A stretch of 27,352 bases of DNA from a virus: IMG/VR virus record IMGVR_UViG_3300025154_000336, positions 1-27,352 of that record. One strand, given 5' to 3'. The translations under genes and the position numbers were made by a program. Shown here piece by piece: positions 7,393 through 27,189 of the stretch. Position 1 is the stretch's first letter. The number at the start of each line of letters is the position of its first letter. Under the pieces are notes generated by a model. It did not search any database. It was given only the letters and a program-made list of their open reading frames with translations, and was not told where the DNA came from.

Positions 7393-7434
7393 GAGTAGTC
7401 AGTTGACAGTAGTCAGTAGCCAGTGAATGCAGGC
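7393..7434. repeat. Dispersed 7-nt-period repeat, copy 2
   Basis: Immediately after the distal tail stop is AGTAGTCAGTTGACAGTAGT and further heptads, ending in GTAGCCAGTGAATGCAGG. That tail matches the copy near 16458 almost exactly (GTAGCCAGTAAATACAGG), so the shared unit is longer than the heptads alone. Confidence 0.7.
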
Positions 7435-7475: not shown

Positions 7476-7514
7476 AACCACAAAGGACACAAAGGGCACA
7501 AAGGTTTCAAAGGA
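7476..7514. repeat. ACCACAAAGGACAC dispersed repeat, copy 1, supplying a ribosome-binding site
   Basis: AACCACAAAGGACACAAAGG is followed by two further CAAAGG-like units. The last AAAGGA (7509-7514) lies exactly 7 nt before the GTG start of the hub gene and is its only good Shine-Dalgarno candidate. A second copy sits at 25152-25180 in the same relation to another gene. Confidence 0.7.
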
Positions 7515-11830: not shown

Positions 11831-11947
11831 TTATTGAAACAGGCCGGAAAAGAAGGTGATAAAGGCTTCTCGGAGTTGTGGTGAAACCAGGAGCAGCAGG
11901 AGTAGCAGACCGATGGTGGCAATGAATCCAAACTGTACTTTAGTCAT
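11831..11947 (-). CDS. 38-residue single-span membrane protein coupled to the MmeI-like gene
   Basis: A small reading frame starts at an ATG inside the last codons of the restriction-modification gene, overlapping it by 8 nt. AAAGGG lies about 6 nt upstream. It encodes MTKVQFGFIATIG, then seven leucines and VSPQLREAFITFFSGLFQ. That gives a short N-tail, one strongly hydrophobic span (about residues 6-21) and an amphipathic C-tail. The overlap suggests translational coupling with the upstream enzyme. No family is recognised. It could be a holin-like or toxin-like peptide, a membrane anchor for the enzyme, or an accidental frame. The good ribosome-binding site, the overlap and the terminator downstream favour a real gene. 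Confidence 0.5.
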   Translation of the reverse strand: MTKVQFGFIATIGLLLLLLLVSPQLREAFITFFSGLFQ

Positions 11948-14681
11948 GTTTTGCCCTTTCTAAATTAAGTTTTAGCAATCGTTCAAGGATTTCTTCGTCA
12001 TTGAGATTATCCGGCCAGCCGTAGGCGGCGAATACTGCCAGGTCAAGTTTGCGATGGGCGTTGACTAGCCAGGTTGGGCGCTTATTGTAAAGACCGGTGA
12101 GAGTCTCTCCGTCTTTTAGGACATTATCGCGCATTTGCAACAGTTCGCGGGCGGCCTGAGTGATGGCTTCGACACGAGAATCTCCAACTGGTTCTTGACC
12201 GGGTGACCAAGGGAAGGGGTAAGTTTCAAAACATGTGGTGCTGTTGTATGTTGGATCATTGCCAACACCATGTCGAGCTCCATTAGCAAGTGCCCATATT
12301 TCATGCGGGCGTGCATGTAGGATGCCAAAAAAATAATCATCCTCGCGAGCAAATACCATAACCTTTGCATCCGGTAGTACTGTTGAGTCCAACCAAACAA
12401 AAATTCGATATTTTGAAACTACAGGGGTGGCGATGTATCTTTTTAATCCTGAAATTGCCTGACGCATCTCGGGGCGAGAGCGCTCAAACAACCACCATTG
12501 ATTTCTTATTTTTTCGATGCGTTCCTTTTCTCGTCCTGGCTTGACCTGTGTTTTTACATACTCATAAGGCAGTTCATATTGAGATGCCTGTCCTTCGGTC
12601 ATTTGCACACCAAAATCAATAATCCACTTGTTTTTGTTTTTGCCTACTAGATCGCTGCCATTTCTCCAAGGTTTGATAACATCGCGATTTGGCCTGCCAT
12701 TTGGATTGTTTTGAGCTGCTAAAAAGGTTTGTGCAGTTTCATAGTCTATATCAAAATCGCCGTATTTTTTTGTACCTGGGAAGACGATTTGATCGTTTTC
12801 CATTAGGCGAATTGCGGTGTTGACGTCAACTGTTGCGCTTAAATCTGAATTTATTGTTTCTACTGGCTTTTCGTCTAGTCTCCGACTGTTTTCTTGACCT
12901 TGATCGAAACATACAATGGAAACACGGACAGCAGCTCCATCTAATATCCAGGGGCGATCGCTGTAAGCCATGAATATATCGCCAGTTTCTTTGATGCGAT
13001 CTAATACTGTACGACTGAGGCCCTTGCGAATGGACTGTGTTGCAATTAATCCTGCTCTTTTGCACTTGCCGTTTTCAATTTGTCGGCGAGCCTTTTCAAA
13101 CCAATAACATACAAGATCACTTTTTCCTGGTACTCGATCCCGATAGAGTGCATTCATTTGTTGGGTGTATTTTCCGCCCAACTCAGACAATTGTTTTTGA
13201 CTTCCTAAGAATGGAGGGTTTCCTATGATCGCAGTTGCTTCTGGCCAGTCGGGTTCATGTGGAACGCCTTTTTCATCTACAAACATAATGGCATCCATGT
13301 GCTGAATATTATTCAGTGGCTTTAAAACTGGATCTGCCACCCCGAAACCGTGGTCTTTTAGCCATTGTAAGTAACCGATCCAGATGGTGGCCTGTGCAAG
13401 TTGGTGGGCGTATTCGTTGATCTCAATTCCATGAAGTTGATGCGGCCCAACGTTTGGAAAAAAGTTGCCGATTCCAAGATACCCAGCCATGCGGATGACT
13501 TCTTGTTCTAACTCGAGCAGCAACCGCAACGCAACATAAAGAAAATTACCTGAGCCGCAGGCAGCGTCGAGAACCCGGACATGCCCGATTTCATACGCAA
13601 ATCCCATTAGAAGTTCACTTAGTTTCTTTTCCAGGTTCTCCCGTTCTTTACCTTTGGCCATGTCACGCTTGGCAGCTATCGCCAAGGCCTGGGCTTTGAT
13701 TTCAGTCCATTGCCGGCGCAATGGTTCCATCAGAACTGGTTCAATAATTAACAGAATATCCTCTTCGCTGGTGTAATGGGCCCCCAATTGGCTGCGTTTG
13801 GTGGGGTCTAACCCCCGTTCAAATAACGTTCCAAATATCGAGGGTCGAATACGGAACCAATCCAGGTCGCTGATTTCAACCAGAGTTTGCAGGCTTTTGC
13901 TATCCAGTAGCAAAGATGCAGCATTATCGAAAAGATAGCCATTGAAGTGCAGAATTTTATCAAAACCAAAACGCCCCCCAGCGGCCATCAGGCCAAAGAT
14001 TTGCTGTAAAAGATCGCGAAATTCTTTCGGCTGTGTGCTGGTGCTGTGAATTAATCGTGTGATCATTTGGTTGGGTAGTAAATCTGCATCTTCTGCAAAG
14101 AGGCAGAACAGAAGTCGAATCAGAAAATGGGCGACTTCTAACGGCGGGTATTTGGCCTGTAGCCGAATGGCGATTTCACCAAACTTTTCCGCGGCTTTTT
14201 CACTAACCTCGTCTGTTTCTTGTATATTTTTGAATGCATCTGGGTTGGTGAAAATATTATGTAAAAGGCTCATCCCTTCATGGGTGAGCAAATCATCCAG
14301 AGTCAGCGTATATTCACGAGTTGGTGTGTTTGTAAATTTGGTACGAATAACGATCTTTTGAGCATTGGCAACAATCAATAAGGGGGGATTTCCTAAAGCT
14401 CCGTGATATTGAAGTAGCTGATCAAAGGCTGCCTCAAAATTGCCATCGGGTCCTTTGTATTCCCAAGCAAAATGATCTTTGTACCAGACATCAGCATATC
14501 CCTTTGCCCCGCTGCTTTTTTTAAGGTCAGATTGGAAGCCAAAAATTTTTCCAGTTGGATCAAATGCATTTGGAGTTGGGTGGCCGATTAGAGCGCAAAG
14601 ATTGTTGAAATGTTCACGATCAAAAGAAGTTTCTTTTTGAGTATTATGTCGCCAGATGTTAACAAATTCCTGTGCATTCAT
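11940..14681 (-). CDS. Single-chain restriction-modification enzyme, MmeI-like (type IIL/IIG)
   Basis: The 913-residue product matches the MmeI plan and length (about 920). The N-terminal nuclease has D64 (YADVW) and E74-Y-K76, the D-x(9)-E-x-K PD-(D/E)xK form. A helical linker follows (about 160-340). The gamma-class N6-adenine methyltransferase carries motif I DAACGSGNF at 372-380 and motif IV NPPF at 488-491. A target-recognition region and C-terminal helices (about 600-913) complete it. Such enzymes methylate one strand of an asymmetric site and cut at a fixed distance when it is unmodified, with no separate partner protein. The gene is clearly AT-richer than its neighbours, suggesting transfer. 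AGGGAG lies 6 nt before the ATG, with a promoter just upstream. Confidence 0.88.
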   Translation of the reverse strand: MNAQEFVNIWRHNTQKETSFDREHFNNLCALIGHPTPNAFDPTGKIFGFQSDLKKSSGAKGYADVWYKDHFAWEYKGPDGNFEAAFDQLLQYHGALGNPPLLIVANAQKIVIRTKFTNTPTREYTLTLDDLLTHEGMSLLHNIFTNPDAFKNIQETDEVSEKAAEKFGEIAIRLQAKYPPLEVAHFLIRLLFCLFAEDADLLPNQMITRLIHSTSTQPKEFRDLLQQIFGLMAAGGRFGFDKILHFNGYLFDNAASLLLDSKSLQTLVEISDLDWFRIRPSIFGTLFERGLDPTKRSQLGAHYTSEEDILLIIEPVLMEPLRRQWTEIKAQALAIAAKRDMAKGKERENLEKKLSELLMGFAYEIGHVRVLDAACGSGNFLYVALRLLLELEQEVIRMAGYLGIGNFFPNVGPHQLHGIEINEYAHQLAQATIWIGYLQWLKDHGFGVADPVLKPLNNIQHMDAIMFVDEKGVPHEPDWPEATAIIGNPPFLGSQKQLSELGGKYTQQMNALYRDRVPGKSDLVCYWFEKARRQIENGKCKRAGLIATQSIRKGLSRTVLDRIKETGDIFMAYSDRPWILDGAAVRVSIVCFDQGQENSRRLDEKPVETINSDLSATVDVNTAIRLMENDQIVFPGTKKYGDFDIDYETAQTFLAAQNNPNGRPNRDVIKPWRNGSDLVGKNKNKWIIDFGVQMTEGQASQYELPYEYVKTQVKPGREKERIEKIRNQWWLFERSRPEMRQAISGLKRYIATPVVSKYRIFVWLDSTVLPDAKVMVFAREDDYFFGILHARPHEIWALANGARHGVGNDPTYNSTTCFETYPFPWSPGQEPVGDSRVEAITQAARELLQMRDNVLKDGETLTGLYNKRPTWLVNAHRKLDLAVFAAYGWPDNLNDEEILERLLKLNLERAKHD

Positions 14682-16457: not shown

Positions 16458-16495
16458 GTCAGTAGTCAGTAGACTGTAGCCAGTAAATACAGGGG
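16458..16495. repeat. Dispersed 7-nt-period repeat, copy 3
   Basis: GTCAGTAGTCAGTAGACTGT is followed by AGCCAGTAAATACAGG. It fills the whole gap between the HicB stop codon and the integrase start codon, displacing any ribosome-binding site for the integrase. Confidence 0.7.
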
Positions 16496-16840: not shown

Positions 16841-17099
16841 GGTTGGTGTCCTTTCTTTGTAACTCTAAAAGTTGGTCTATCAGTTTGACTGCCTGCTCGA
16901 CGTATCCACGGGCAAGGGTGACGTGGCGCGGGAGGGTGGTGCGTAGATGCTGGTGATCGGGGTGCTTGACGATGTCGTGATTGCTACCATTTATTATAAC
17001 AAAACCATGGCCCAGATAGAGGGTATCTAGGTCAGCACGTTTCCAGCCGGCCTTGGAACGGCGCATTCGTTTGAGCAACCTGGCTGCTTTGGTGGTCAT
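16821..17099 (-). CDS. hicA: HicA-family mRNA interferase toxin
   Basis: The 92-residue protein has the small double-stranded RNA-binding-like HicA core. A helix with 'WKRADLDTLYLGHGF' is followed by 'GSNHDIVKHP', where H41 sits at the catalytic histidine position, and then 'LPRHVTLARGYVEQAVKLI' replaces the usual P-x-H-x-x-L ending. HicA cleaves mRNA until HicB binds it. The N-terminal 15 residues are basic and longer than in many HicA proteins. Its ATG overlaps the stop of the DUF6941-like gene (ATGA), so three genes form one unit. In a prophage such a pair can stabilise lysogeny or act in abortive infection; that role is inference. Confidence 0.82.
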   Translation of the reverse strand: MTTKAARLLKRMRRSKAGWKRADLDTLYLGHGFVIINGSNHDIVKHPDHQHLRTTLPRHVTLARGYVEQAVKLIDQLLELQRKDTNHEPDPS

Positions 17100-17512
17100 T
17101 GTTGAGCTGGGGCGGAAACATCCAGGGTTTCGACCAAGAGAGAGAGGCTGCTTTTGTGATCTTTGTCTACGATGAGGACGAAACTGTAGGGGCCGGGAAC
17201 AGGAAAGACGACATCACGGATGGCAATAATGGCGTTGATTTCGGGCTTTTGGCCTTTGGTGCGGTGGGGAACTTGCATTTCGCTACCTACTTCAAGAAGG
17301 CGGTGGCCGTCTGGGTCGAGAAGCAAGATACGGAGGTCGCGGGTTTGACCGTCTTCGCCGAGATCGGCTTCCAGTTTGACGATGAGGTGCATGGATGGGT
17401 GACGGGCAGGAAACTGGCGGGCGTAGATGACGCTGAATATGCCCATGATGTTCAGTTTACCTTCGGCGGTGAGATTGGCGTAGTCGGCGGTAAGAAAGAG
17501 GGAGGTGTGCAT
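17096..17512 (-). CDS. DUF6941-like conserved protein upstream of hicAB
   Basis: The 138-residue protein has a recognisable pattern: LFLTADYANLTAEGKLNIMG at residues 5-24, then 'FSVIYARQFPARHPSMHLIVKLE', a beta-rich middle, and 'FPVPGPYSFVLIVDKDHKSS' near the C-terminus. I associate this 'cDYAN..eGKLNi.GiF' pattern with DUF6941, whose function is unknown. The fold looks like a beta sandwich with no catalytic motif. It is transcribed with hicA and hicB (ATGA overlap with hicA), so it may modify or control the toxin pair, or simply share the promoter. The start has only a weak ribosome-binding site. Confidence 0.6.
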   Translation of the reverse strand: MHTSLFLTADYANLTAEGKLNIMGIFSVIYARQFPARHPSMHLIVKLEADLGEDGQTRDLRILLLDPDGHRLLEVGSEMQVPHRTKGQKPEINAIIAIRDVVFPVPGPYSFVLIVDKDHKSSLSLLVETLDVSAPAQQ

Positions 17513-17526
17513 AGTCTATTCTTTTG

Positions 17527-18357
17527 TCACGGCTTGGTTGTGATTTCCAGGGTCCAGGGGCCTTCAGCATGGATTGTGATCATGAATGTCTTTCTATCAA
17601 GTACAACGGTACCCTGATAGGGAGCGATTTCGTTGATCAGTAAATCACGGCCGGATGCGGTGTATCCCCAAACAGCGAAGTTTCCCCTTCCAGTAGCATC
17701 TGCTTTCAGCAAGTCGGGGATGCTGGTAGTAAGAACAATGACATCGTCTCCTTCGCCTGTGATGGTGCTGGGGATGGCCTCGGCACGTACGTAATCTTTT
17801 GTGAATGGGTAGACGTTGATTTCCCAGGGGCCAGACGCAGTTACTTCAAAGCGGGTAGTATTTTCGGTGATATCAATCAGCAGGGTGCCATGGTAGCTAC
17901 CGATGGTGTTGACCAGTAGGTCTATTTTTTCGCCATCCGCAGAGTAGTTGAATATAGAAAAATTACCTCCACCGGTATATCTGATTTTCAGAAGCGCTGC
18001 GCCATCCCATTTCGAGAGGTCTACCACGCTGTCACCTGTGCCGGTCAATATGATGGGGTCTGGGGCGGGGGTCGGCGTGTTTGTTGGAACGGGGGTGTTG
18101 GTAGGCGCAGTAGTATTTGTGGGCGCAGGTGTGTCTGTGGGACCTGTGGTATTTGTTGGGACAGGGGTCTCTGTGGGTGCGGTGGTTTTAGTTGGCTGAG
18201 CAGTCTGTGTTTGTTTTTCGGCGGCAACTTCGGTTAGCGAGGCTTTGCCGGCCGGGGTAGCATTGTAAATAGCAGCGGCGGTGATGCAGATAATACAGAG
18301 GGCGATCAATGCACCGACAATAATGAGAAGCGGTTTAGAGATTTTATTGGTTTTCAT
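17527..18357 (-). CDS. PT-rich, membrane-anchored surface protein with two tandem beta domains
   Basis: The 276-residue protein has an N-terminal membrane anchor (about residues 9-31), a Pro/Thr/Asn-rich stalk (about 48-98) made of PTNT/PTET units, and two related beta domains (about 105-184 and 200-273). The two domains share G-x-G-D-x-V/D-V, GGGNFSIFNYSA versus GRGNFAVWGYTA, LL-x-N-x-I-x-x-Y-x-GT, and an ending ASGPWEINV versus AEGPWTLEI. They therefore arose by duplication. Such PT stalks are common in Chloroflexota surface proteins. AAAGGGG lies about 9 nt before the ATG. In a lysogen it would face outside and could alter phage adsorption, as known lysogenic-conversion proteins do; that role is inference. 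Confidence 0.7.
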   Translation of the reverse strand: MKTNKISKPLLIIVGALIALCIICITAAAIYNATPAGKASLTEVAAEKQTQTAQPTKTTAPTETPVPTNTTGPTDTPAPTNTTAPTNTPVPTNTPTPAPDPIILTGTGDSVVDLSKWDGAALLKIRYTGGGNFSIFNYSADGEKIDLLVNTIGSYHGTLLIDITENTTRFEVTASGPWEINVYPFTKDYVRAEAIPSTITGEGDDVIVLTTSIPDLLKADATGRGNFAVWGYTASGRDLLINEIAPYQGTVVLDRKTFMITIHAEGPWTLEITTKP

Positions 18358-19207: not shown

Positions 19208-19225
19208 AAGTGAATTGTAAAGCAT

Positions 19226-19253
19226 ATTATATAAACTGCTTGACATTTCAAAA
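19226..19253 (-). promoter_or_regulatory. Promoter of the repressor / lysogeny operon
   Basis: On the minus strand TTTTGA (19253-19248) and a perfect TATAAT (19231-19226) are 16 bp apart. Initiation near 19219 would give a leader of only about 12 nt before the ATG at 19207. The -35 box of the opposing early promoter lies within its spacer, so the two promoters cannot be occupied together. Confidence 0.55.
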
Positions 19254-19268
19254 GTATTCTGCTAACAT
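19240..19268 (+). promoter_or_regulatory. Early-operon promoter (consensus -35, extended -10)
   Basis: TTGACA at 19240-19245 and TAACAT at 19263-19268 are separated by exactly 17 bp, and TGC directly before the -10 box gives an extended -10. Initiation is expected near 19275, about 37 nt before the ATG of the ribbon-helix-helix gene. It is the strongest promoter match I see in the window. Confidence 0.75.
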
Positions 19269-19281
19269 ACAAGAGACTTGT
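19269..19281. promoter_or_regulatory. Operator candidate ACAAG-AGA-CTTGT
   Basis: A perfect 5-bp inverted repeat with a 3-bp centre lies directly after the early -10 box, covering the expected start of transcription. Either the XRE-type repressor or the ribbon-helix-helix protein could bind here. Only one clear copy is visible, so cooperative multi-operator control is not shown. Confidence 0.45.
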
Positions 19282-19311
19282 TATATACGAGTTACTCAAG
19301 GAGATTACGGA

Positions 19312-19524
19312 ATGGCTGAAGAAGCTGAGAAGATGCTTAATGTACGATTGAAGGGGCCGGAAATGTTGATGCTGGATGCGCTGTGTCGGCGTGAGATGCG
19401 GACGCAGTCCGGCATGATCCGATGGTTGATTGCTCGTGAGTACCAAAAGACTCTGCCGGCCGAGATATTACCGGTCCAGGATGAAGCGGCGACGACTCCG
19501 GTGATCCATAACAGCGAGGTCTAA
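19312..19524 (+). CDS. Ribbon-helix-helix (Arc/CopG-like) early regulator
   Basis: Started at the ATG at 19312, which has AAGGAG 8 nt upstream, the protein is 70 residues. Residues about 8-45 match a ribbon-helix-helix: the strand MLNVRLKGPEM, helix 'LMLDALCRREM', turn 'RTQSGMIRWLIAREY'. Proteins of this kind bind DNA as dimers through the strand pair. As the first gene of the early operon facing the repressor it holds the Cro-like or Arc-like position. The C-terminal 20 residues are probably disordered. The frame continues upstream of 19312, but that part overlaps the promoter and is not expected to be translated. Confidence 0.75.
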   Translation: MAEEAEKMLNVRLKGPEMLMLDALCRREMRTQSGMIRWLIAREYQKTLPAEILPVQDEAATTPVIHNSEV

Positions 19525-19525
19525 A

Positions 19526-19873
19526 ATGAGCGAAGAGATCGGCGGTTATGTCGTTCTTCCGACTGCGGTGATTGATATCGCTGATCCGCTTGAGCCAAGA
19601 GCGGACCTGGCTTCGATGATCGGGCCGGCGCCAACGCCGGAATGGGCGCTGAACCTGGACCTGCTGACTGTCGATGAGGCAGCGCAGGTGTTGAAGTGCG
19701 GGGCCAGTACGGTGTACCGGGCGATCAAAGACGGAAAGCTGGCGTCGCTGAGATTCGGGCGGTGCGTGAGGGTACGCCGGGTTGACCTGGCGGCGTTTGT
19801 GAGCCAGGCGGCATTGGTTAATAGTAGTGTAGCAGAAACAGAAGGGGAATGCAAACAAACCAGTAGTCAGTAG
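19526..19873 (+). CDS. Excisionase-like HTH protein
   Basis: The 115-residue protein contains the excisionase-family (HTH_17, MerR-like winged helix) signature at about residues 46-92: LLTVDEAAQVLKCGASTVYR, then AIKDGKLASLRFG, and VRVRRVDLAAFV. Such proteins bend DNA at attachment sites (Xis) or act as small regulators. The N-terminal 45 residues are acidic and unlike a minimal Xis. The gene begins 1 nt after the stop of the ribbon-helix-helix gene. Its last codons and stop (TAG) lie inside a dispersed heptad repeat, so the C-terminus was probably changed by repeat insertion. Confidence 0.75.
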   Translation: MSEEIGGYVVLPTAVIDIADPLEPRADLASMIGPAPTPEWALNLDLLTVDEAAQVLKCGASTVYRAIKDGKLASLRFGRCVRVRRVDLAAFVSQAALVNSSVAETEGECKQTSSQ

Positions 19874-19891
19874 TCAGTAGTCAGTAATTAC
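19860..19891. repeat. Dispersed 7-nt-period repeat, copy 4 (CAGTAGT tandem)
   Basis: CAGTAGT repeats perfectly about four times and ends with CAGTAATTACGGG. The stop codon of the excisionase-like gene is taken from the repeat. This is the most regular of the five copies in the window. Confidence 0.75.
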
Positions 19892-19902
19892 GGGAAGCTG
19901 CT

Positions 19903-20007
19903 CCGTTCGGGATAAGACCGGCTGCGTTGGTCGGGGCGATGCATCGAACGGCGGGGCGGCTGTCGAGGGGGGCCTGGGGATGATTTGAACCAGGTTCCCC
20001 CCTCGAC
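19903..20007 (+). ncRNA. Structured noncoding leader with two nested hairpins
   Basis: Hairpin A: CCGTTCG (19903-19909) with CGAACGG (19945-19951), and inside it GACC (19916-19919) with GGTC (19929-19932). Hairpin B: GTCGAGGGGGG (19962-19972) with CCCCCCTCGAC (19997-20007), extended by CCTGG (19973-19977) with CCAGG (19990-19994), leaving a 12-nt loop and a 2-nt bulge. Hairpin B is 16 bp and very stable. No T tract follows. It lies between the excisionase-like gene and the next gene's ribosome-binding site, so it could be an RNA switch, an antiterminator target, an mRNA-processing site or a DNA-level structure such as an origin. I recognise no known family. Confidence 0.45.
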
Positions 20008-20044
20008 GAGAAATCAGGAAAGGTTAGAAAAACGGAGGCATGTG

Positions 20045-20707
20045 ATGGACGAGAATATTCCTGAGGGTGTAGTTAAATTGGTAGAAGTTTGCCGGACGGC
20101 GCAGGCGGCCCGGCAGGCGACTAAGCAGATGGAAGCTGAGGCGGCGCGGTTGGCGGCTGAAGAGCGGTCGGTGCAGTGGTTGGCTCAGGTCAACCAAAAG
20201 CTGGTGCCGGAGCTGCTGCCGTATCACCAGGCGTTTGATACTCAGCGGTCGCTGTTGAAGATCCCGGGGATGGCGGAGATTGAGCTGGGTTGGCTGGGTG
20301 ACAATTATACGTCAGTCTGGGTGCGGGAGTACCAGGCGAGCTGGGCTGATTGGTACGATGGGCCAGTGTGGTCTTCGCACGAGGCTGATGGATTAGAGCA
20401 GGCGCTTGCAATGGCGAGCGATCCGGATCTGGCGGGGAGTTATGAGCGGGCGGTACGGAAGCTGCAGGAACCCAAGCCGCTCGATAGGGCGGTTCAGGAT
20501 GAAACGCAGTTGGCACTGCGGATTACGGTAACGGTACGAGTTGAGCGGGTGGGCGGATCGCTTGAGAGCTTGAACGAGTCGGCGTTTGATGCATCCGGCT
20601 CATTTTCGGCGCTGGTGAAGGCGGCCCAGATGCACGCCCAAGAGATGATCCCGGAAACTGTAGATGAGTTCTTCGATACCGAAATCGAGGCGCTGGAGGG
20701 GGAGTGA
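20045..20707 (+). CDS. Conserved-looking early protein of unknown function
   Basis: Started at the ATG at 20045, with GGAGG 6 nt upstream, the protein is 220 residues; earlier in-frame starts lie inside the stable hairpin and are unlikely. Residues 14-50 form an Ala/Arg-rich coiled helix (AQAARQATKQMEAEAARLAA). The middle is aromatic-rich (SVWVREYQASWADWYDG) and the C-terminal part has a beta strand 'ALRITVTVRVERVGG' followed by an acidic helix. No family is recognised. It heads a run of genes joined by 1-4 nt overlaps, so it is expressed with the zinc-binding and membrane proteins that follow. Confidence 0.6.
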   Translation: MDENIPEGVVKLVEVCRTAQAARQATKQMEAEAARLAAEERSVQWLAQVNQKLVPELLPYHQAFDTQRSLLKIPGMAEIELGWLGDNYTSVWVREYQASWADWYDGPVWSSHEADGLEQALAMASDPDLAGSYERAVRKLQEPKPLDRAVQDETQLALRITVTVRVERVGGSLESLNESAFDASGSFSALVKAAQMHAQEMIPETVDEFFDTEIEALEGE

Positions 20708-21150
20708 TGAACGAGATGGAGATTAGAGTCTTGAATATCCTGAAGCGGCGCGGGCCGCTGTCGCTGTGGTCGCTGCGGAGTCTGACCAAGCGCCAGGAGG
20801 AGCTGGTTGAAGCGGTGAACCAGCTCCTGGCGGATGATGTGTTGGAGTATGTGCGCGGTAAAAATGGCGCCTTGCTGCACCGGATTGTAGACCCTGAGTT
20901 GGTGATCCCGGAATACGAGGCGGACCTGTCGCAGAAGTACAACCCATTTGTAAAAAGCGGCAAAACTTGCCGGCACTGCGGGCTGGAGAAGAAGGTCAAT
21001 AAAAAGGGGCTGTGCAGCGCCTGCAATGTGCACGACAGCGGATTGGATCCGGAAATGCAGGCGCGGGTGGACAAGGTGGTGGCGAATGCGCAGCCGGGGC
21101 CGGCAGCCAGGCCGAGAGTCACGCGGAATGTCGCAGGGCGGCGGCTATGA
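20707..21150 (+). CDS. Winged-helix plus zinc-ribbon small protein
   Basis: The 147-residue protein starts at an ATG overlapping the previous stop (TGATG) and preceded by GGAGGGGAG. Residues about 1-60 look like a winged helix (MEIRVLNILKRRGPLSLWSL, then 'RQEELVEAVNQLLADDVLEYV'). Residues about 86-104 form a zinc ribbon with C-R-H-C and C-S-A-C pairs 13 residues apart. The C-tail is basic and Pro/Arg-rich. The combination suggests a DNA-binding early regulator. A restriction-blocking or replication role cannot be judged from the sequence. Confidence 0.6.
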   Translation: MNEMEIRVLNILKRRGPLSLWSLRSLTKRQEELVEAVNQLLADDVLEYVRGKNGALLHRIVDPELVIPEYEADLSQKYNPFVKSGKTCRHCGLEKKVNKKGLCSACNVHDSGLDPEMQARVDKVVANAQPGPAARPRVTRNVAGRRL

Positions 21151-21416
21151 GTATCCACGTCTGGCGGGCGCAGGTGAGCGAGGATCAACAGGCGAATAAC
21201 CTGGTGAATTACCATCGCCTGGATCAATTCGAGCTGCACCGGATCTTCCAGATGCGCAGCATCCGGGCTGAGCGCGCCCGGACCTGCCGGCATGAGTTCA
21301 TGGAACCAATCCATGGGCGCGCAGAGAGCTGGTGCCTGCGCTGCGTGTACTGCGCCGGAGTGATCAGTCTGCAATCGTCAGACAGTAGGCAGGTAGGGCA
21401 AGAGAGGTTGTTATGA
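21147..21416 (+). CDS. Small Cys/His protein
   Basis: The ATG at 21147 overlaps the previous stop (ATGA), giving 89 residues; longer frames upstream run through the preceding gene. The N-half is a helix rich in Gln and Arg (SEDQQANNLVNYHRLDQFEL). The C-half has CRHEF and WCLRCVYCAG, a possible zinc site with one Cys-His pair and two or three cysteines. The last 12 codons resemble a decayed dispersed repeat (CAGACAGTAGGCAGGTAGGG). No family is recognised. Confidence 0.5.
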   Translation: MSIHVWRAQVSEDQQANNLVNYHRLDQFELHRIFQMRSIRAERARTCRHEFMEPIHGRAESWCLRCVYCAGVISLQSSDSRQVGQERLL

Positions 21417-21622
21417 AACTAACAAAACGGGTTTTTATGGCGGTTTTGTCAGCGGCGCTGCTGGCAGCGCTGGCCTGGCTGGTGTTGGACGAGGCCGGCC
21501 TGGTGGTGGATTTTGGGCCGGTGGCCTGTGTGAGCGTGTTCAACCCGCAGAGCGGGATCGGGCGCCTGATCGGTTACTGCTCGTGGATCGGGATGCCGGC
21601 AACATGGATGATGAGTTGGTGA
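21413..21622 (+). CDS. Small membrane protein (69 residues)
   Basis: The ATG overlaps the previous stop (ATGA) and has GAGAGG upstream. The protein starts MKLTKRVFMAVLSAALLAAL and continues AWLVLDEAGLVVDFGP, so one membrane span or signal sequence is expected at residues 7-26. The remaining part carries two cysteines (VACVSVF, GYCSW) and an aromatic tail, which fits an extracellular domain with a disulphide. It is the first of several membrane proteins leading to the FtsK-like gene. Function is unknown. Confidence 0.55.
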   Translation: MKLTKRVFMAVLSAALLAALAWLVLDEAGLVVDFGPVACVSVFNPQSGIGRLIGYCSWIGMPATWMMSW

Positions 21623-21632
21623 GGAGGCTGCG

Positions 21633-22073
21633 ATGATTTTGGTTGTAATTTTGCTGGTGTTGGTGATGGGGGTGATGGCGCTGGGGTATATCGCCAGTTC
21701 GGCGGCGGCATTTGAGGCGGCGCGGGCGGCGGAAGCGGCGGCCCAGGCGGCGCAGATGGCGGTGGGTGTGACGCTGCTGGAGCAGGTGATCAGCCTGGTG
21801 GCGTGGCTGGTGGTGTTGGCTGCGGTGGGGGTGGTGGGGACGTGGATGTGGAGGAAGGCGAAGGGTAGCCAGTATCCTGTAGCCGGTAGCCTGAAAAGAC
21901 AAGCTCAGCCGGTTCTGTTGGCTCAGCCGGAAGCACTGCCTAAGCCGGCCGGGGATCCGCTGGATGTGATGACCAGGTTGATGGCGCTGCAGATGATGCA
22001 GCAGATCCAGCGGGAAAATGCAGCAGCCAGCCGGCAGTTGCCAGCAGCCAGTGAGGATAGGTGGGCACGATGA
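21633..22073 (+). CDS. Two-span membrane protein with repeat-derived linker
   Basis: GAGGAGG lies 5 nt before the ATG. The 146-residue protein has a span at about 2-23, an Ala-rich helix (EAARAAEAAAQAAQMAVGV), a second span at about 52-70 ending in WMWRKAKG, and a soluble C-tail. The linker codons GSQYPVAGSL are encoded by a copy of the dispersed heptad repeat (21864-21894). The end contains 'DPLDVMTRLMALQMMQQIQREN', a possible oligomerisation helix. Its stop overlaps the next start (ATGA). No family is recognised. Context suggests a part of the membrane complex with the FtsK-like protein. Confidence 0.55.
   Translation: MILVVILLVLVMGVMALGYIASSAAAFEAARAAEAAAQAAQMAVGVTLLEQVISLVAWLVVLAAVGVVGTWMWRKAKGSQYPVAGSLKRQAQPVLLAQPEALPKPAGDPLDVMTRLMALQMMQQIQRENAAASRQLPAASEDRWAR
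21864..21894. repeat. Dispersed 7-nt-period repeat, copy 5, inside a coding region
   Basis: GGTAGCCAGTATCCTGTAGC, then CGGTAGCCTGA, lies in frame within the two-span membrane protein gene, between its second membrane segment and its C-tail. It shows that the repeat can be tolerated or used as a protein linker. Confidence 0.6.
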
Positions 22074-22267
22074 TTACCGGACTTATGCCCCCTATGCCTG
22101 GATGGTTGATTGCGATTATATGTGTGTGTTTTTGGGTGATAGGTGCTCTGATGGTTTATGCCGTTATTGCCGGCGGATGCCGGTACGACAAGGAATGTGA
22201 AGATGAAAATCAAGATGTTAGTGCTGCTGATGTTGTCGCTGCTGTTGATGAACTGCATGTCAGTTGA
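22070..22267 (+). CDS. Small membrane protein overlapping a lipoprotein frame
   Basis: The ATG at 22070 overlaps the previous stop by ATGA, giving 65 residues. The sequence MITGLMPPMPGWLIAIICVC leads into one membrane span (about 11-36), followed by CRYDKEC with two cysteines and an acidic tail (ECEDENQDVSAADVVAAVDE). The 3' part overlaps, in another frame, a 38-residue lipoprotein-like gene beginning at 22203. The arrangement of a one-span protein with an out-of-frame embedded lipoprotein recalls Rz/Rz1 spanins, although this tail is too short for a periplasmic coiled coil. Function unknown. Confidence 0.5.
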   Translation: MITGLMPPMPGWLIAIICVCFWVIGALMVYAVIAGGCRYDKECEDENQDVSAADVVAAVDELHVS

Positions 22268-22319
22268 AGAGCGAGACGCCCGGGCGGTTAAGTTTGATAA
22301 CGGCGAGGCTGAAGAGTAG
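22203..22319 (+). CDS. 38-residue lipoprotein-like peptide in an overlapping frame
   Basis: This reading frame starts at an ATG with AAGGA 8 nt upstream and encodes MKIKMLVLLMLSLLLMNC, a compact lipoprotein-type signal with the lipobox-like LMNC, then MSVEERDARAVKFDNGEAEE. Of the 38 residues only about 20 would remain after processing at Cys18. The lipobox is not canonical at -1 (Asn), but the same -TSC/-MNC style is used by the larger lipoprotein encoded 0.5 kb downstream (LLTSC). It overlaps the preceding membrane protein gene by 65 nt in a different frame and its stop lies 4 nt before the next ATG. Confidence 0.5.
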   Translation: MKIKMLVLLMLSLLLMNCMSVEERDARAVKFDNGEAEE

Positions 22320-22323
22320 TGAA

Positions 22324-22764
22324 ATGCCTATTCTAAATTACACAACCCAGGTTATGTCTGAAAAGACGGTGATGGAAATACAACAGATCTTAGCGCGGGC
22401 AGGAGCGAAGACGATCAGCGTTGATTATGATGAGCTTGGCCAGCCATCAGCAGTGACGTTTGTTGTACAGATTTTGGGACGGTGGGTCAACTATAGACTG
22501 CCGTCTAATTTCAAAGGCGTGCAGACTGTGTTGCAGCTCGATCCTGCTGTACCAAATAAATTCAAAACCGCAGCACAGGCGCAGCGGGTAGCCTGGCGGA
22601 TTATCAAGGAATGGTGTGCGGCGCAGATGGCGCTTATAGAAGCCAATCAGGCTGAGTTGGCAGAGATTTTTTTACCTTATGCGGTGATGGATTCCGGAAG
22701 GACGCTCTTCCAGGAATTTCGATCTGGGACATTGTTGTTAGGTAAAGGCACCCAGGATGAATGA
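22324..22764 (+). CDS. Widely occurring phage-associated protein of unknown function
   Basis: The ATG at 22324 gives 146 residues; the frame is open further upstream but overlaps the small lipoprotein. The sequence has features I recall from many phage proteins without known function: MPILNYTTQVMSEKTVMEIQ at the start, then 'ILARAGAKTISVDYDELGQP', a R-L-P strand, 'AQRVAWRIIKEWCAAQMALI' and 'IFLPYAVMDSGRTLFQEF'. That set is found in phages and plasmids as an early gene. The protein is mixed alpha/beta with no catalytic motif. It overlaps the start of the lipoprotein gene frame by a few bases. Confidence 0.65.
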   Translation: MPILNYTTQVMSEKTVMEIQQILARAGAKTISVDYDELGQPSAVTFVVQILGRWVNYRLPSNFKGVQTVLQLDPAVPNKFKTAAQAQRVAWRIIKEWCAAQMALIEANQAELAEIFLPYAVMDSGRTLFQEFRSGTLLLGKGTQDE

Positions 22765-22780
22765 TAGAGGTACAGCAGTT

Positions 22781-23869
22781 ATGAAGAATACAATTATCTT
22801 TTTTGTTCTTGCCTTCCTGTTGACATCGTGTATGTCCGCCGACTATTACGCGGCGCAGGCGGACTCTCAGCGTTCCACGGCAACCGCTCAGGTGATCGGC
22901 GCTACTGCCACGATTGAAGCCGAACGTATCATGCGCACCACCACCGCTGAAGCTCAGCGGCTGGAAGCCGCCCGCGTGGACATGCGGCGCACCGACCAGG
23001 CCATCGAGGCCACTGCGACCGCTGGGGTACAACAAACAGCAGTGGCCCAGGCCACCGCGGCCGCGGCGCAGATCACAGCCGAATACAACCAGGCAGAGAC
23101 GGCGACGGCCGAGGCACAGAGCCAGGCGACGGCCCAGGCGCATGTGATTGAAACCCAGCGGGCCTGGGTGCAGACTCAGGCAGCGCAGGAAGCGCAGGGC
23201 ACGGCGACGGCCATTGGAATGGCGTTCCTGATCGCCGATAAAACGGCGACGGCCCAGGCGCAGGCGACCGGCACGCAGCGGGCCTGGGTGCAGACGCAGA
23301 CGGTGGTGACAGCAGAGCAGGCGGCTCTGGAGCGGTCCCGGATGGACGCTGATAAGCTGCGCAGTTTGGGTATCGTCCGCGCCGAACGGACGAACCTGCT
23401 GTTGGCGGGGGCGCCATATGTGGCCGGCAGCCTGGTGCTGGTGCTGCTGATCTGGCTGGGCTGGCGGTTTGGTCTGGCGGAGAGCAATCGGCGGAAGCAG
23501 CAGCCGGATGGAACGATCATAGATGAGCGCGGGGGGAGCCTGACGGTGCTGATACCTAACCGGTCGCTGTGGCCACAGTTGGAGAACACGGCGCAGGGTG
23601 CGGTGACTCAGGAGGTGAGCGAGGGGGCTCAGAGTGTTGTGGCAGGCCAGGCGCAGTTGGTTGAGGCGCTGCGAGCGCTGGCGGCGGCTGGTACAGCGCC
23701 GACTCTGCCGCAGATGCGGGAGATGATGCTGGGGGATCAGCGGCCGTTATCGAGGAGCGGGCCCAGGCCGCTCTTTCGAATTGTAAATAGTTTGCCGGCT
23801 GAGATTGGGGATCAGGCGGCAGTCGAGGCGATTGACGCCGATTGGAGTGAAGCAAATGCAGAACAGTAA
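22781..23869 (+). CDS. Lipoprotein with long Ala/Thr/Gln helix and C-terminal membrane span
   Basis: Start at the ATG at 22781 gives 362 residues and a clean lipoprotein signal (NTIIFFVLAFLLTSC, lipid Cys17); an ATG at 22757 would add 8 residues. Residues about 25-200 are a low-complexity helix of ATAQ/ATAE units with two related blocks (TQRAWVQTQ occurs twice, with surrounding ATAQAQ). A membrane span follows (about 208-232; VAGSLVLVLLIWLGW), then a cytoplasmic part of about 130 residues with helix 'QGAVTQEVSEGAQSVVAGQ'. The protein is thus anchored twice with an extracellular coiled segment between. It overlaps the FtsK-like gene by 14 nt, so the two are coupled, and its cytoplasmic tail may recruit the translocase. 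Confidence 0.65.
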   Translation: MKNTIIFFVLAFLLTSCMSADYYAAQADSQRSTATAQVIGATATIEAERIMRTTTAEAQRLEAARVDMRRTDQAIEATATAGVQQTAVAQATAAAAQITAEYNQAETATAEAQSQATAQAHVIETQRAWVQTQAAQEAQGTATAIGMAFLIADKTATAQAQATGTQRAWVQTQTVVTAEQAALERSRMDADKLRSLGIVRAERTNLLLAGAPYVAGSLVLVLLIWLGWRFGLAESNRRKQQPDGTIIDERGGSLTVLIPNRSLWPQLENTAQGAVTQEVSEGAQSVVAGQAQLVEALRALAAAGTAPTLPQMREMMLGDQRPLSRSGPRPLFRIVNSLPAEIGDQAAVEAIDADWSEANAEQ

Positions 23870-25142
23870 TCGGTTACACGAGGCGGTGGTTAAGGCGGCG
23901 GCGCTGGCATTTGAACGGTTGATCCGTCCGCACCTGGTGGAGGATCTGCCAGAAACGGTGTTCTGGGTCTGGCCCAGGGAAGACCGTGTGATTTTAGCGA
24001 TTGATCCGCTGGCGGTGAAAAGCATTGATACGCTGTTGAATGCGCGCTTTACGCACCACCTGAGCACGGCGCTGCAGGGGCGACGGGTGATCAAAACCAA
24101 TACGCGGGGCGTGTTCTTCCAGGTGGATTACGAACAGCAGCTTCAGGCGGAGCTGACGGCGGTGGTGCTGGATCTGAGTTCACAGCCCAGCCCGGTGGCG
24201 GTGCCGATTGGGATGACCAAGCGCGGGCCGCTGTGGTTGGATCTGACGGTAATGGATTCTGTATTGATCGGCGGCGCCCGGCGGATGGGTAAGAGTCGCT
24301 TCGTTCACGCCTGGATCCAGGCGCTGGAGCACGGCGGCCGGGCGCGCTTATTCCTGTGGGACGGCAAGGACGGTCAGGAATTTGGCCGCTACCAGGGCCG
24401 GATGGGCGTTTTGGTTGACAATGATCTGGAAGCGCTGCTGCTGATTGTAATGGCCGAGGCTGAGCGACGGCGGGAGCTGTTCAAACAGTCTGGTGTGACC
24501 AGTTTGCCGGAATACAATGCCCAGGCGGCACAGAAGCTGGATGTTTTGGTGCCGGTGATTGATGAGGCGGCGTTCATTCCTGAGGGCTGCCAGGGGCTGC
24601 TGCATGATCTGGTCGCTCGCTGTGGGGCATACGGGGTGCATCCGGTGATCGCAACGCAGCGGCCGGACGCCGGCGCAGTGCAGACGATTATCAAGGCGAA
24701 TTTGAGCACCCGGATCAGCTTTGCGGTGCCCAGCAGTTACGACTCTCAGGTGATCCTGGGCCGGTCGGGAGCGCAGGATCTGCCAAAGCGCCCAGGGCGG
24801 CTGTTGATCAGTCATGCTGCGCGAACGATCCAGGCGCAGGCGTTTTTGGTTGAGGTGCCGGCGGGGGCTACTGCTCAGGGGAATGGTCTGAAGGAACGGG
24901 AGCTGGCGGTACTGGAATGCGCGGCGCAGCGCGGCGGAAAGGTGACGATGGCGGATGCGCAGCGGCTGGGGTTGAGTGAGTGGGATGCTCGCCAGACGCT
25001 GGCCGGCCTGGCGGGGGTTGGGCTGCTGGAAAAGTCTATTGAGAAGGGGCCCAGAACGCTGACGAAGGCGGGGTGGGCGGCGGTTTCTCAAAGCAATCAA
25101 AGCGCTCAATATGCCTCAAAAGAACTATTTGGGGCTCAATAG
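23856..25142 (+). CDS. FtsK/SpoIIIE-type DNA translocase
   Basis: The ATG at 23856 (GGAG 8 nt upstream) gives 428 residues, without N-terminal membrane spans. The motor shows Walker A GGARRMGKS (139-147), Walker B VPVIDEAAF (233-240), and the FtsK signature ATQRPDAGAVQTIIKANLST (266-285) followed by RISFAVPSSYDSQVILG and 'AQDLPKRPGRLL'. The C-terminus (about 340-410) looks like a winged helix (LSEWDARQTLAGLAGVGLLE), the place of the DNA-guiding gamma domain. FtsK-type motors pump double-stranded DNA. In actinomycete integrative elements a single such protein suffices for conjugative transfer. Here the membrane spans are supplied by neighbouring genes. The N-terminal 120 residues match nothing I know. 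Confidence 0.88.
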   Translation: MQNSNRLHEAVVKAAALAFERLIRPHLVEDLPETVFWVWPREDRVILAIDPLAVKSIDTLLNARFTHHLSTALQGRRVIKTNTRGVFFQVDYEQQLQAELTAVVLDLSSQPSPVAVPIGMTKRGPLWLDLTVMDSVLIGGARRMGKSRFVHAWIQALEHGGRARLFLWDGKDGQEFGRYQGRMGVLVDNDLEALLLIVMAEAERRRELFKQSGVTSLPEYNAQAAQKLDVLVPVIDEAAFIPEGCQGLLHDLVARCGAYGVHPVIATQRPDAGAVQTIIKANLSTRISFAVPSSYDSQVILGRSGAQDLPKRPGRLLISHAARTIQAQAFLVEVPAGATAQGNGLKERELAVLECAAQRGGKVTMADAQRLGLSEWDARQTLAGLAGVGLLEKSIEKGPRTLTKAGWAAVSQSNQSAQYASKELFGAQ

Positions 25143-25151
25143 GGCTCAATT

Positions 25152-25180
25152 GAACCACAAAGGACGCAAAGGACACAAAG
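25152..25180. repeat. ACCACAAAGGACAC dispersed repeat, copy 2, supplying a ribosome-binding site
   Basis: GAACCACAAAGGACGCAAAG, then GACACAAAG, ends directly at the ATG at 25181. AAAGGA at 25168-25173 is 7 nt before the start, the same distance as in the copy before the hub gene (7476-7514). Confidence 0.7.
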
Positions 25181-25318
25181 ATGAACACTTATTTGACGGT
25201 CGGGCAGGAACTTGAGCGCTGGTGCAGCCGGTGCAATCAGCGGACGGTGCATGTGTGGAATCCGGCGGCGAAGAAGCCGATGGAGTGTCAGAAATGTAAG
25301 GATGAGGTGGCGAAATGA
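25181..25318 (+). CDS. 45-residue zinc-ribbon protein
   Basis: The frame encodes MNTYLTVGQELERWCSRCNQ and further to K-P-M-E-C-Q-K-C-K-D-E-V-A-K. Two Cys-x-x-Cys pairs, 17 residues apart, indicate a zinc ribbon. The only ribosome-binding site is the AAAGGA of the dispersed repeat. Its stop overlaps the ATG of the next gene (ATGATG). Small zinc ribbons of this kind are frequent in phage early regions. Function unknown. Confidence 0.55.
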   Translation: MNTYLTVGQELERWCSRCNQRTVHVWNPAAKKPMECQKCKDEVAK

Positions 25319-25746
25319 TGACAGAAGAAGAATTGCAAGAAATCACAGCGATTAATGCAGCCAGAACGCCAGGCAAGTGGAGATTATTCACTGGCATAAA
25401 GGGCCTGGTTGAGGTGCAAATAGCGGGCGTAAGAGCCCCAATCGTCGGTTGGCCCGGCTTTGACGATAGCGATAGATCTTCGAAAGAACATCGGAGAAAC
25501 GCCGCCTTTATCGCCCGCTCAAGCACGGCTGTCCCGGATATGCTCGCTGAAGTGAAGCGGCTGAATAAATATGTTGAGCTTCTTAAAAGCGATCGGGCGC
25601 AGAGTGACAGATTACAGGCGCAGATCTCGCGGCTTCGCGCTGTATTAGAGGCTATCCATACTATGGTGCAGCGCCCGCACTATTTTCGCGATTTCGAAGC
25701 CATTGATGATATTGTGCGCGAGGCCATGAAAGGCGACAAGCCATGA
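25315..25746 (+). CDS. Ead/Ea22-like early phage protein
   Basis: The 143-residue protein has the Ead/Ea22-type module: 'ARTPGKWRLFT' near residue 16, 'RRNAAFIARSSTAVPDMLAE' near 60-79 and 'VKRLNKYVELLKSD'. That pattern (TPG-W...NAAFIA...VP..LAEV) is seen in many dispensable early phage proteins. A coiled helix (RAQSDRLQAQISRLRAVLEA) follows. The N-terminus MMTEEELQEI recurs in modified form in the next two genes. It overlaps both neighbours by ATGA. Confidence 0.7.
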   Translation: MMTEEELQEITAINAARTPGKWRLFTGIKGLVEVQIAGVRAPIVGWPGFDDSDRSSKEHRRNAAFIARSSTAVPDMLAEVKRLNKYVELLKSDRAQSDRLQAQISRLRAVLEAIHTMVQRPHYFRDFEAIDDIVREAMKGDKP

Positions 25747-26024
25747 CCCCGGAAGAATTGAAGGTTATCGAAGACGGTCTGGATGAAGCTGAAGGTATTG
25801 GCGCTATATCCTTCGAGGCACGCCACACGATGGAGCGACTGATTGAGGAAGTGAGGCGGCTGCGTAAACTGGTTGCCATTGCAAAGCTCAACTTTGCAGA
25901 GATGGACAGGATTGACGGTCTGGATCAAATTGAATTTGCCGAGAGAAACGGCCTCTATGATGAATATCTATCTGGAACCAACTGGCAGGAAGTATTTGAG
26001 CGCTATGACGAGGTGGCGAAATGA
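25743..26024 (+). CDS. Small helical protein, paralogue-like, of the Ea22 cluster
   Basis: The 93-residue protein begins MTPEELKVIEDGL and contains 'ERLIEEVRRLRKLVAIAK', matching in style the helices of the proteins before and after it (EELQEI start and LLEEVxxLR helix). The C-half ends with 'EYLSGTNWQEVFERYDEVAK'. It overlaps both neighbours by ATGA. No family is recognised beyond likely common descent with its neighbours. Confidence 0.55.
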   Translation: MTPEELKVIEDGLDEAEGIGAISFEARHTMERLIEEVRRLRKLVAIAKLNFAEMDRIDGLDQIEFAERNGLYDEYLSGTNWQEVFERYDEVAK

Positions 26025-26419
26025 TTACATCCGAAGAACTGCAAGAAATCCAATCTATCATCAATCGGTTTCACGTTATTGCCGGCCCCGGTGAAGTTGA
26101 TATTCAGCTTGACGAGAAACTAGATCGTCTGTTGGAAGAAGTATATGCCTTGCGCATTCAGTTCGAAGAGAGAGACGCTGCTCTTGTGCAAGCACTTCAA
26201 AAAAATAGCCTACTGCAGGCTGAGGTTGAGAAATGGCAGAAACGTTCCGATACGCAGTATAAGGTTATTGTAGGGCGGGATGAATTATTCGAGAGAACCG
26301 TCAAAGAACTAAATGGGGTGCGCAAGTACATCATGTCGCATGACATTCTGCTGGGTGAATGCACCGGTTGGATTGCATTGAAAAAGATGTACGGCGTTGG
26401 GGAGTATGAAAAGAAATGA
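26021..26419 (+). CDS. Coiled-coil protein, third member of the Ea22 cluster
   Basis: The 132-residue protein begins MITSEELQEIQSIINRF, has 'LDRLLEEVYALRIQFEERDA' (about 43-62) and a long heptad-rich helix to residue 100 (ALQKNSLLQAEVEKWQKRSD). The C-terminus 'GECTGWIALKKMYGVG' is compact. The shared N-terminal motif and helix suggest that it and its two upstream neighbours are diverged copies with exchanged C-terminal parts. It overlaps both neighbours by ATGA. Confidence 0.55.
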   Translation: MITSEELQEIQSIINRFHVIAGPGEVDIQLDEKLDRLLEEVYALRIQFEERDAALVQALQKNSLLQAEVEKWQKRSDTQYKVIVGRDELFERTVKELNGVRKYIMSHDILLGECTGWIALKKMYGVGEYEKK

Positions 26420-27189
26420 CAAAGGGTAAATTCACGATCAACACGAACCATATTTTATGGGCGGTATACGTAGGGCTGCTGGCGGTTCTGCTGCCGCATA
26501 CGGCGTGGGCCTTCGAGCAATTTGAGCCGGCCGGTTTGTTCGGGACCGTGGTGGCCTGGATGGGGGCGTTTTCATTTGAAGCGGCGATTGCGGTGCTGAC
26601 GCACAAGTTGGCCGGCCACATCGAAAGGACGCCGAAGAAACTGCAGGGGAAAGCGAAGTTCGCCTACCGGTACCTGAATGCGTATGCGGCGGGACTGGTG
26701 ATTGCCTTAGGTGTGAGCGTACTCGCGAACCTGGCACATGCGGTGGAGTACGGACAGAGTGTAAAAATCTTCACTGCCTGGCAGATACCGTTCGGTGTGT
26801 ATGCGGTGACGTTCGGTGCAGTCTTGCCACTAACCTCGCTGTTGTTCGCCAGGGTGCTGTCGAACGTAGTCGAGAGCGAAGGCGAAGAAGACCCGATGAT
26901 CGCCGAACTTCGGAAGGTTATCGCTGAGCTTCGGTCGAAGCTGCAACTGGCCGAACAGGTAGTTCGGTCGGCTCAAGCAGAGGCGAACGAGTCCAAACTG
27001 CGAGCGATGGCAGCCGAAGAGCGACTGAACGGCGCGGCGGAATTTGCGGCCCGGTTGTTCGCTGAGGATAAGCGCCAGCGAATTCTAGCGGCGCGGGAGC
27101 AGTGGCCTGGCCTGGCGTCTTCGGTGATTGCGGTGATCGCTTCGGCGTCGCCGGCGTATGTTTCGGAAGTGCTGAACGGCGAGAAGTAA
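26416..27189 (+). CDS. Four-span membrane protein with coiled coil and C-terminal HTH-like end
   Basis: The 257-residue protein has four membrane segments (about 13-33, 42-63, 92-113 and 126-148), a Glu/Lys/Arg-rich coiled coil (about 156-215) and a C-terminal stretch 'KRQRILAAREQWPGLASSVI' ... 'SPAYVSEVLNG' that resembles a helix-turn-helix. The four-span plus cytoplasmic DNA-binding layout recalls the DUF2637/Spd-type proteins of actinomycete integrative elements, which accompany FtsK-like transfer proteins; this resemblance is by architecture, not by proven homology. The ATG overlaps the previous stop (ATGA). It would tether DNA or a DNA-protein complex to the cell membrane. Confidence 0.6.
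   Translation: MTKGKFTINTNHILWAVYVGLLAVLLPHTAWAFEQFEPAGLFGTVVAWMGAFSFEAAIAVLTHKLAGHIERTPKKLQGKAKFAYRYLNAYAAGLVIALGVSVLANLAHAVEYGQSVKIFTAWQIPFGVYAVTFGAVLPLTSLLFARVLSNVVESEGEEDPMIAELRKVIAELRSKLQLAEQVVRSAQAEANESKLRAMAAEERLNGAAEFAARLFAEDKRQRILAAREQWPGLASSVIAVIASASPAYVSEVLNGEK

Follow-up and report, generated by a model that had tools for sequence, protein, structure and literature searches.

What would a soluble DNA motor do in a tailed temperate phage, next to a run of small membrane and lipoprotein genes? This question is raised by IMG/VR record IMGVR_UViG_3300025154_000336, which was analysed over its full length of 27,352 b (the window), and in which the gene for an FtsK/SpoIIIE-type motor directly follows that of a 370-aa lipoprotein, here termed Lip370. 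On balance, we lean towards the view that the motor is an early phage translocase of double-stranded DNA (dsDNA) that acts on the DNA of its own phage close to the membrane. This reading draws on the motifs and predicted fold of the motor, the presence of a separate terminase in a sister contig, the commonness of soluble FtsKs in phages, the position of the motor in phylogenetic trees, and the recurrence of membrane partners among its relatives. The features at issue are the following:

23856..25142, plus strand: soluble FtsK/SpoIIIE-type motor, 428 aa from the ATG at 23856 (445 aa from the TTG at 23805)
24867..25037, plus strand: C-terminal helical domain of the motor (about residues 338-394), winged helix-turn-helix (wHTH)-like in the AlphaFold2 (AF2) model, with helices at residues 344-358, 365-370 and 375-390 predicted at moderate confidence
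22757..23869, plus strand: Lip370, lipoprotein with the lipobox LTSC (Cys25), one transmembrane (TM) segment and a C-terminal tail of ~130 residues predicted to be cytoplasmic

Sequence and predicted structure of the motor

The motor scores 44 bits against the Pfam FtsK_SpoIIIE domain (PF01580; cut-off 24) and matches PHROG_1358 with an E-value of 4.4e-48, although its identity to any relative found is only ~20-35%. All positions that are invariant across an alignment of 42 members are conserved in it, among them those of Walker A (GGARRMGKS), Walker B (VIDE) and the ATQRP motif. The AF2 model built from this alignment has a predicted local distance difference test (pLDDT) score of 80. In Foldseek searches of the PDB with this model, E. 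coli FtsK (2ius) and TcpA (6o1w) were tied as best matches (E-value 1.7e-19; TM-scores 0.55-0.60, with 2ius at 0.60), TcpA being also the best sequence match in the PDB (9.3e-18), and weak structural matches to ATPases of the A32/B204 type were seen in addition. Taken together, motifs and modelled fold predict that the protein is a hexameric dsDNA translocase of the FtsK/SpoIIIE type. A TM scan of the motor recovered no span. Its C-terminal tail scored no better than shuffled sequences against a hidden Markov model of FtsK-gamma-like tails, and the possibility that a Replic_Relax wHTH had been fused onto the tail was rejected on the same ground.

A tailed phage with its own terminase

Protein scans of the window recovered a siphovirus-type tail module (major tail protein, tape measure, Dit and fibre), a type IIG MmeI-like restriction-modification gene, a tyrosine integrase (at 15274), and a leftward lysogeny-type cluster, with a repressor-like leftward open reading frame (ORF) at 18827. 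The upstream head genes come from two closely related contigs in IMG/VR (L-numbers are our labels for contigs and loci): the sister contig L221/L223, of which L221 is 99.2% identical to the window over 6,453 b, and L222, which shows 79-98% identity in blocks. The head genes encode a 557-aa TerL with a Pfam TerL_nuclease match (L223), a portal (1.2e-70), a ClpP-type protease (6.7e-20) and a P22-type coat protein (1.2e-12). The element is thus a temperate tailed phage of conventional type that encodes its own terminase; the record, which lacks the phage replication region, is an incomplete version of it.

Phage FtsKs and their recurrent membrane partners

FtsK motors are present in 212 records of the phage collection and in at least 374 IMG/VR contigs (374 of 431 pattern-matched stretches). 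The latter were recovered with an alignment query used in place of single-protein scans, which for FtsK, Lip370 and the further gene product M257 gave no relatives, either through poor automatic peptide patterns or because there are none. Published surveys likewise report FtsK genes in 24 of 93 Bacillus phages (PMC4197329) and a lysogenic Chloroflexus-associated contig with an integrase and FtsK (PMC8597652). The majority of the phage FtsKs that we fetched are free of TM segments, contrary to the premise of a preliminary description of this locus that motors of this kind as a rule bring membrane spans of their own.

In a tree of motor domains, the window motor falls on the same side as the FtsKs of two Bacillus phages, PM1 and Pascal, and four contigs, L061, L087, L088 and L090 (support 97/97). 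Support for the same side rises to 99/97 once L064 and a Thermoanaerobacterium plasmid join, and an earlier tree agrees. Cellular FtsK and the bulk of the remaining phage FtsKs lie elsewhere in the tree. The defining trait of the group is an adjacent Replication-relaxation (PF13814) gene, and such pairs are known from PM1, Pascal and the 268TH phages (PMC9476937) as well as from Geobacillus and Thermoanaerobacterium plasmids. A second regularity concerns the N-terminus. Among non-redundant FtsKs, 8 of 9 in the Replic_Relax group have a hydrophobic N-terminus (15-residue mean hydropathy of at least 1.7) as against 3 of 58 others, with the cut-off picked after the table was seen; at the script's own cut-off of 1.9 the counts are 5 of 9 and 3 of 58 (p 6e-4). 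The loci concerned (L007, L009, L014, L061, L064, L087, L090, L228 and L229) combine the Replication-relaxation pairing with, mostly, a hydrophobic N-terminal helix. The Priestia plasmid L229 is the exception without such an N-terminus, and in it an ORF with two TM segments stops 12 nt upstream of the motor. In the Thermoanaerobacterium plasmid, a membrane protein of the SpoIIIAC family precedes the motor.

Large phages (contigs of about 140-180 kb) carry a conserved cassette in which two membrane proteins, the ~178-aa phrog_3528 and the multi-TM phrog_3750, are followed by a soluble FtsK of ~750 aa, phrog_3551 (L021, L029, L032, L039, L041, L051, L054, L057, L060 and L079). The large plus-strand ORFs upstream of FtsK in phages of 140-165 kb had been taken as spurious from their N-termini, a judgement overturned when PHROG searches found phrog_3750 in their C-terminal part. 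Together, the hydrophobic N-termini, the membrane neighbours and the cassette indicate that phage FtsKs recurrently accompany membrane segments, either in cis or from neighbouring genes. The preliminary description had regarded an FtsK beside membrane partners as rare in phages, which the cassette and the neighbours within the Replic_Relax group contradict. Its further idea that the spans might be provided in trans finds reasonable, if partial, comparative backing in the hydrophobic N-termini of the relatives, the arrangement in L229 and the large-phage cassette.

What is new here is the position of the motor beside the Replic_Relax-paired FtsKs, together with the regularity of the N-terminal helix and the cassette of two membrane proteins and FtsK. 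Two testable regularities emerge, namely an FtsK lineage characterized by Replication-relaxation partners and N-terminal membrane helices, and the cassette of the large phages; jointly, they suggest the membrane as the place where many phage FtsKs act on phage DNA.

Lip370 and the early operon

The motor lies in a tightly packed rightward operon that begins at 19.2 kb and continues to the end of the record. Upstream of Lip370 the relevant part of it comprises several small genes:

19210..27189, plus strand: early operon, running from an HTH_17/excisionase-like gene at 19526 (HTH_17 match 8.8e-14) to a TM protein at 26416, and containing the motor
21147..21416, plus strand: Cys-rich protein of 89 aa, possibly a zinc finger, with an in-frame ATG overlapping the preceding stop by 4 nt, directly upstream of M69
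21413..21622, plus strand: M69, small protein with one predicted TM segment
21633..22073, plus strand: M146, with two predicted TM segments on either side of an Ala-rich loop, and a C-terminal tail
22061..22267, plus strand: M68, small protein with one predicted TM segment
22158..22319, plus strand: L53, possible small lipoprotein (lipobox LMNC) of uncertain start, perhaps the ATG at 22203
22324..22764, plus strand: gp166, a small protein belonging to the phage MPILNYTT family (phrog_17260, 4.3e-07), with a probable start at the ATG at 22324

The membrane/lipoprotein/FtsK operon of the preliminary description was recovered with its ORFs, lipobox, TM segments and soluble motor in place, but L53 is uncertain and the 89-aa Cys-rich gene had been missed. 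Of all these genes L53 is the least secure; it overlaps M68 by 110 nt and stops 4 nt ahead of gp166. The conserved early phage protein noted there is gp166, whose start has been corrected and is probably the ATG at 22324, giving the N-terminus MPILNYTT. Its family is widespread and strongly conserved in phages (L002-L005, L095-L186), with relatives encoded by 170 viral contigs, and an FtsK lies close to such a relative in a single fetched locus, L178 (a Saccharibacteria metagenome-assembled genome), where both fall within about 5 kb. Homologues of M69, M146 and M257 were absent from the 230 loci and M68 had only weak, chance-level matches, while family scans (Pfam, PHROG and NCBIfam among them) gave no match for any of the membrane genes. 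M68 and L53 were considered as an Rz/Rz1-type pair and rejected, being too short to cross the periplasm.

The double anchoring of Lip370 on a long helix is likewise predicted here. Beyond the lipidated Cys25 predicted from its lipobox, an Ala/Thr/Gln-rich helix extends for about 169 residues (residues 4-193 are confident in a single-sequence AF2 model), which, coming from one sequence of this composition, is to be taken as helical propensity. It is followed by a TM segment, placed at about 214-232 by hydropathy and at 220-238 by the AF2 helix. The C-terminal tail, of low confidence in the model, is assigned to the cytoplasm on account of the positive residues following the TM segment. No homologue of Lip370 was found in the 230 loci or in the phage and plasmid collections.

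With the ATG at 23856 as the start of the motor, its gene shares 14 nt with that of Lip370. This much of the earlier picture of genes joined by overlaps is real, but overlaps, mostly of 4 nt, occur at 11 of the 16 junctions in the 19210-27189 stretch and also join genes unrelated to membranes. Overlaps being thus general in the early operon, the one between Lip370 and the motor is by itself no pointer to a complex.

Proposed role of the motor and its alternatives

Under the preferred reading, the motor would act on the phage's own intracellular DNA, in replication, segregation or the clearing of bound proteins, and its replication-associated relatives probably do likewise. Its site of action may be the inner membrane or its vicinity, to which Lip370 or another membrane protein encoded nearby might bring it, and an association with the membrane, possibly in trans, is plausible from the sequence comparisons. 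The remaining membrane genes might be ordinary early accessory genes, for host takeover or superinfection exclusion, and need not cooperate with the motor.

Several points weigh against this reading. The branch of the window motor is very long (2.7-3.2 changes per site), and long-branch attraction may account for its apparent kinship with the Replic_Relax group, making the placement provisional. No PF13814 gene is present in the window. The pairing of FtsK with Lip370 has been observed once only, and the membrane link of the motor, plausible as it is, is a candidate. Moreover, proposed roles for phage FtsKs differ, ranging from sporulation (PMC4197329) and genome segregation (PMC8597652) to DNA injection (PMC3853050) and prophage induction (PMC9476937), and our literature search found no experiment that fixes the role of any of them.

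Among the alternatives, a serious though less probable one is that the membrane and lipoprotein genes form an envelope-modifying set, for superinfection exclusion or, in the case of Lip370, as a spanin-like bridge, with FtsK an unrelated neighbour. Exclusion proteins are often encoded in early operons and lysogeny modules, and further envelope genes lie in the window at 16.4-18.9 kb. Lip370, with its N-terminal lipid and C-terminal TM segment on a helix of ~170 residues (about 25 nm), has the topology of unimolecular spanins, of which gp11 of phage T1 is reportedly an example. Spanins, however, are late lysis genes of phages with diderm hosts and have no large cytoplasmic domain, unlike the early Lip370 with its tail of ~130 residues, and none of the membrane genes has a family match. 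Possible, though slightly less likely again, is the proposal that the cytoplasmic tail of Lip370 anchors the soluble FtsK in place of the N-terminal helix of its relatives, the pair pumping or tethering DNA at the envelope. Consistent with it are the overlap of the two genes, the lack in the motor of the hydrophobic N-terminus that most of its nearest relatives have, the TM ORF that precedes the likewise-lacking motor of L229, and the conservation of the large-phage cassettes. Against it stand the generality of overlaps in the operon, the low model confidence of the tail, and the absence of Lip370 homologues from the 230 loci and the phage and plasmid collections; the motor, with its at least 374 IMG/VR relatives, is widespread without the lipoprotein that had been proposed as its partner. 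An elaboration, in which the FtsK anchor has moved into a separate lipoprotein whose extracytoplasmic helix of ~25 nm serves a two-part envelope pump holding or exporting phage DNA, appears improbable.

The preliminary description had also raised the transfer of dsDNA between cells, which we regard as very improbable. A conjugation-like system of this kind, comparable to TraB of Streptomyces or TdtA of Thermus ICEth1, could appeal to the Foldseek E-value for TcpA, equal to the best, to the integrase, excisionase-like gene and type IIG enzyme found together as in ICEth1 (PMC5365140), and to small membrane genes reminiscent of Spd proteins (PMC12857230). On the other side, the complete tail module and the head module of the sister contig point to a working phage; no relaxase or type IV secretion system (T4SS) protein was found among the scanned ORFs of the window and the sister-contig head genes; TdtA is of the HerA type; and the tail of the motor is not recognisable as FtsK-gamma. 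The NCBIfam TraB model (NF041214) gave the motor 13 bits (cut-off 800; E-value 0.026), and clt/KOPS-like octamers in the 27 kb showed neither a strong polarised excess nor a clustered array of the kind bound by TraB. With the replication region missing from the record, the absence of transfer genes is no proof. The readings as an early translocase, as a motor anchored by Lip370 and as a transfer system overlap in part. A role as a packaging ATPase or diverged terminase, also floated earlier, has next to nothing left to recommend it: FtsK-HerA ATPases do package DNA in other virus classes and the motor has the weak A32/B204-type matches, but its FtsK/TcpA match is far stronger, and the sister contig (L221/L223) encodes a separate TerL and portal, along with protease and coat protein, so that the motor was rejected as the packaging enzyme.

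Other genes and repeats

The MmeI-type IIG restriction-modification gene (11940-14681, minus strand) has a GC content of about 45% as against about 57% for the phage, and is likely to be defence cargo acquired recently. In the lysogeny cluster, a DUF6941 protein (17096-17512, minus strand; 3.5e-29) adjoins a TM protein whose stalk is rich in Thr and Pro (17527-18357). As regards the host, the TPTP/TATA-rich surface proteins are reminiscent of Chloroflexota; bacterial genome searches turned up no near relative in support of this. Rfam and tRNA scans gave no matches.

Tandem heptamer arrays (GTAGTCA and variants), mostly intergenic, occur at 574-604, 7394-7424, 16458-16485, 19861-19886 and 21864-21893. 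A 20-mer from them is present in 32 IMG/VR contigs, whose loci lack window proteins except for one weak integrase match. As tandem intergenic repeats found also in these contigs, the clustered heptamers were rejected as clt-like sites. A tandem nonamer, CACAAAGGA, lies at 7479-7504 and 25156-25180, directly ahead of the start codons at 7522 and 25181, where it would give repeated Shine-Dalgarno-like motifs.

Comparison with known systems

With cellular FtsK (2ius, 6t8b) the window motor shares the motor fold and Walker motifs, but it has neither the N-terminus with four TM segments nor a recognisable gamma tail and falls outside the cellular clade. TcpA of pCW3 (6o1w-6o1z), though its closest PDB sequence and a joint-best fold match, possesses an N-terminal TM domain and is partnered by a relaxase and a T4SS (PMC12857230), none of which was found in the window. 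The TraB systems of Streptomyces plasmids and actinomycete integrative and conjugative elements resemble the locus in having a lone FtsK-type motor beside small membrane genes, whereas the window has phage particle genes and lacks a TraB-level score and an 8-bp repeat array. Thermus ICEth1 (PMC5365140) offers a suggestive parallel, since its TdtA motor has no membrane signal and is encoded in an operon with a type IIG restriction enzyme; the type IIG gene of the window, in contrast, is on the opposite strand, 9 kb from the motor and beside the integrase. Closer are the phage FtsK/SpoIIIE-like proteins (PHROG_1358, PHROG_3551; Bacillus phages PM1 and Pascal, for example), which have the same motor domain and fold in a single, mostly TM-free motor of ~340-450 aa, the window motor differing in its low identity to them and in adjoining a lipoprotein gene without homologues. 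Relative to the FtsK-Replic_Relax pairs, it lacks both PF13814 and the hydrophobic N-terminus, and has an additional C-terminal helical domain. The large-phage cassette, finally, also places membrane-protein genes ahead of FtsK, but these are not homologous to those of the window and precede a motor of about 750 aa. Set beside these arrangements, the window motor offers a natural test case for an anchor supplied in trans.

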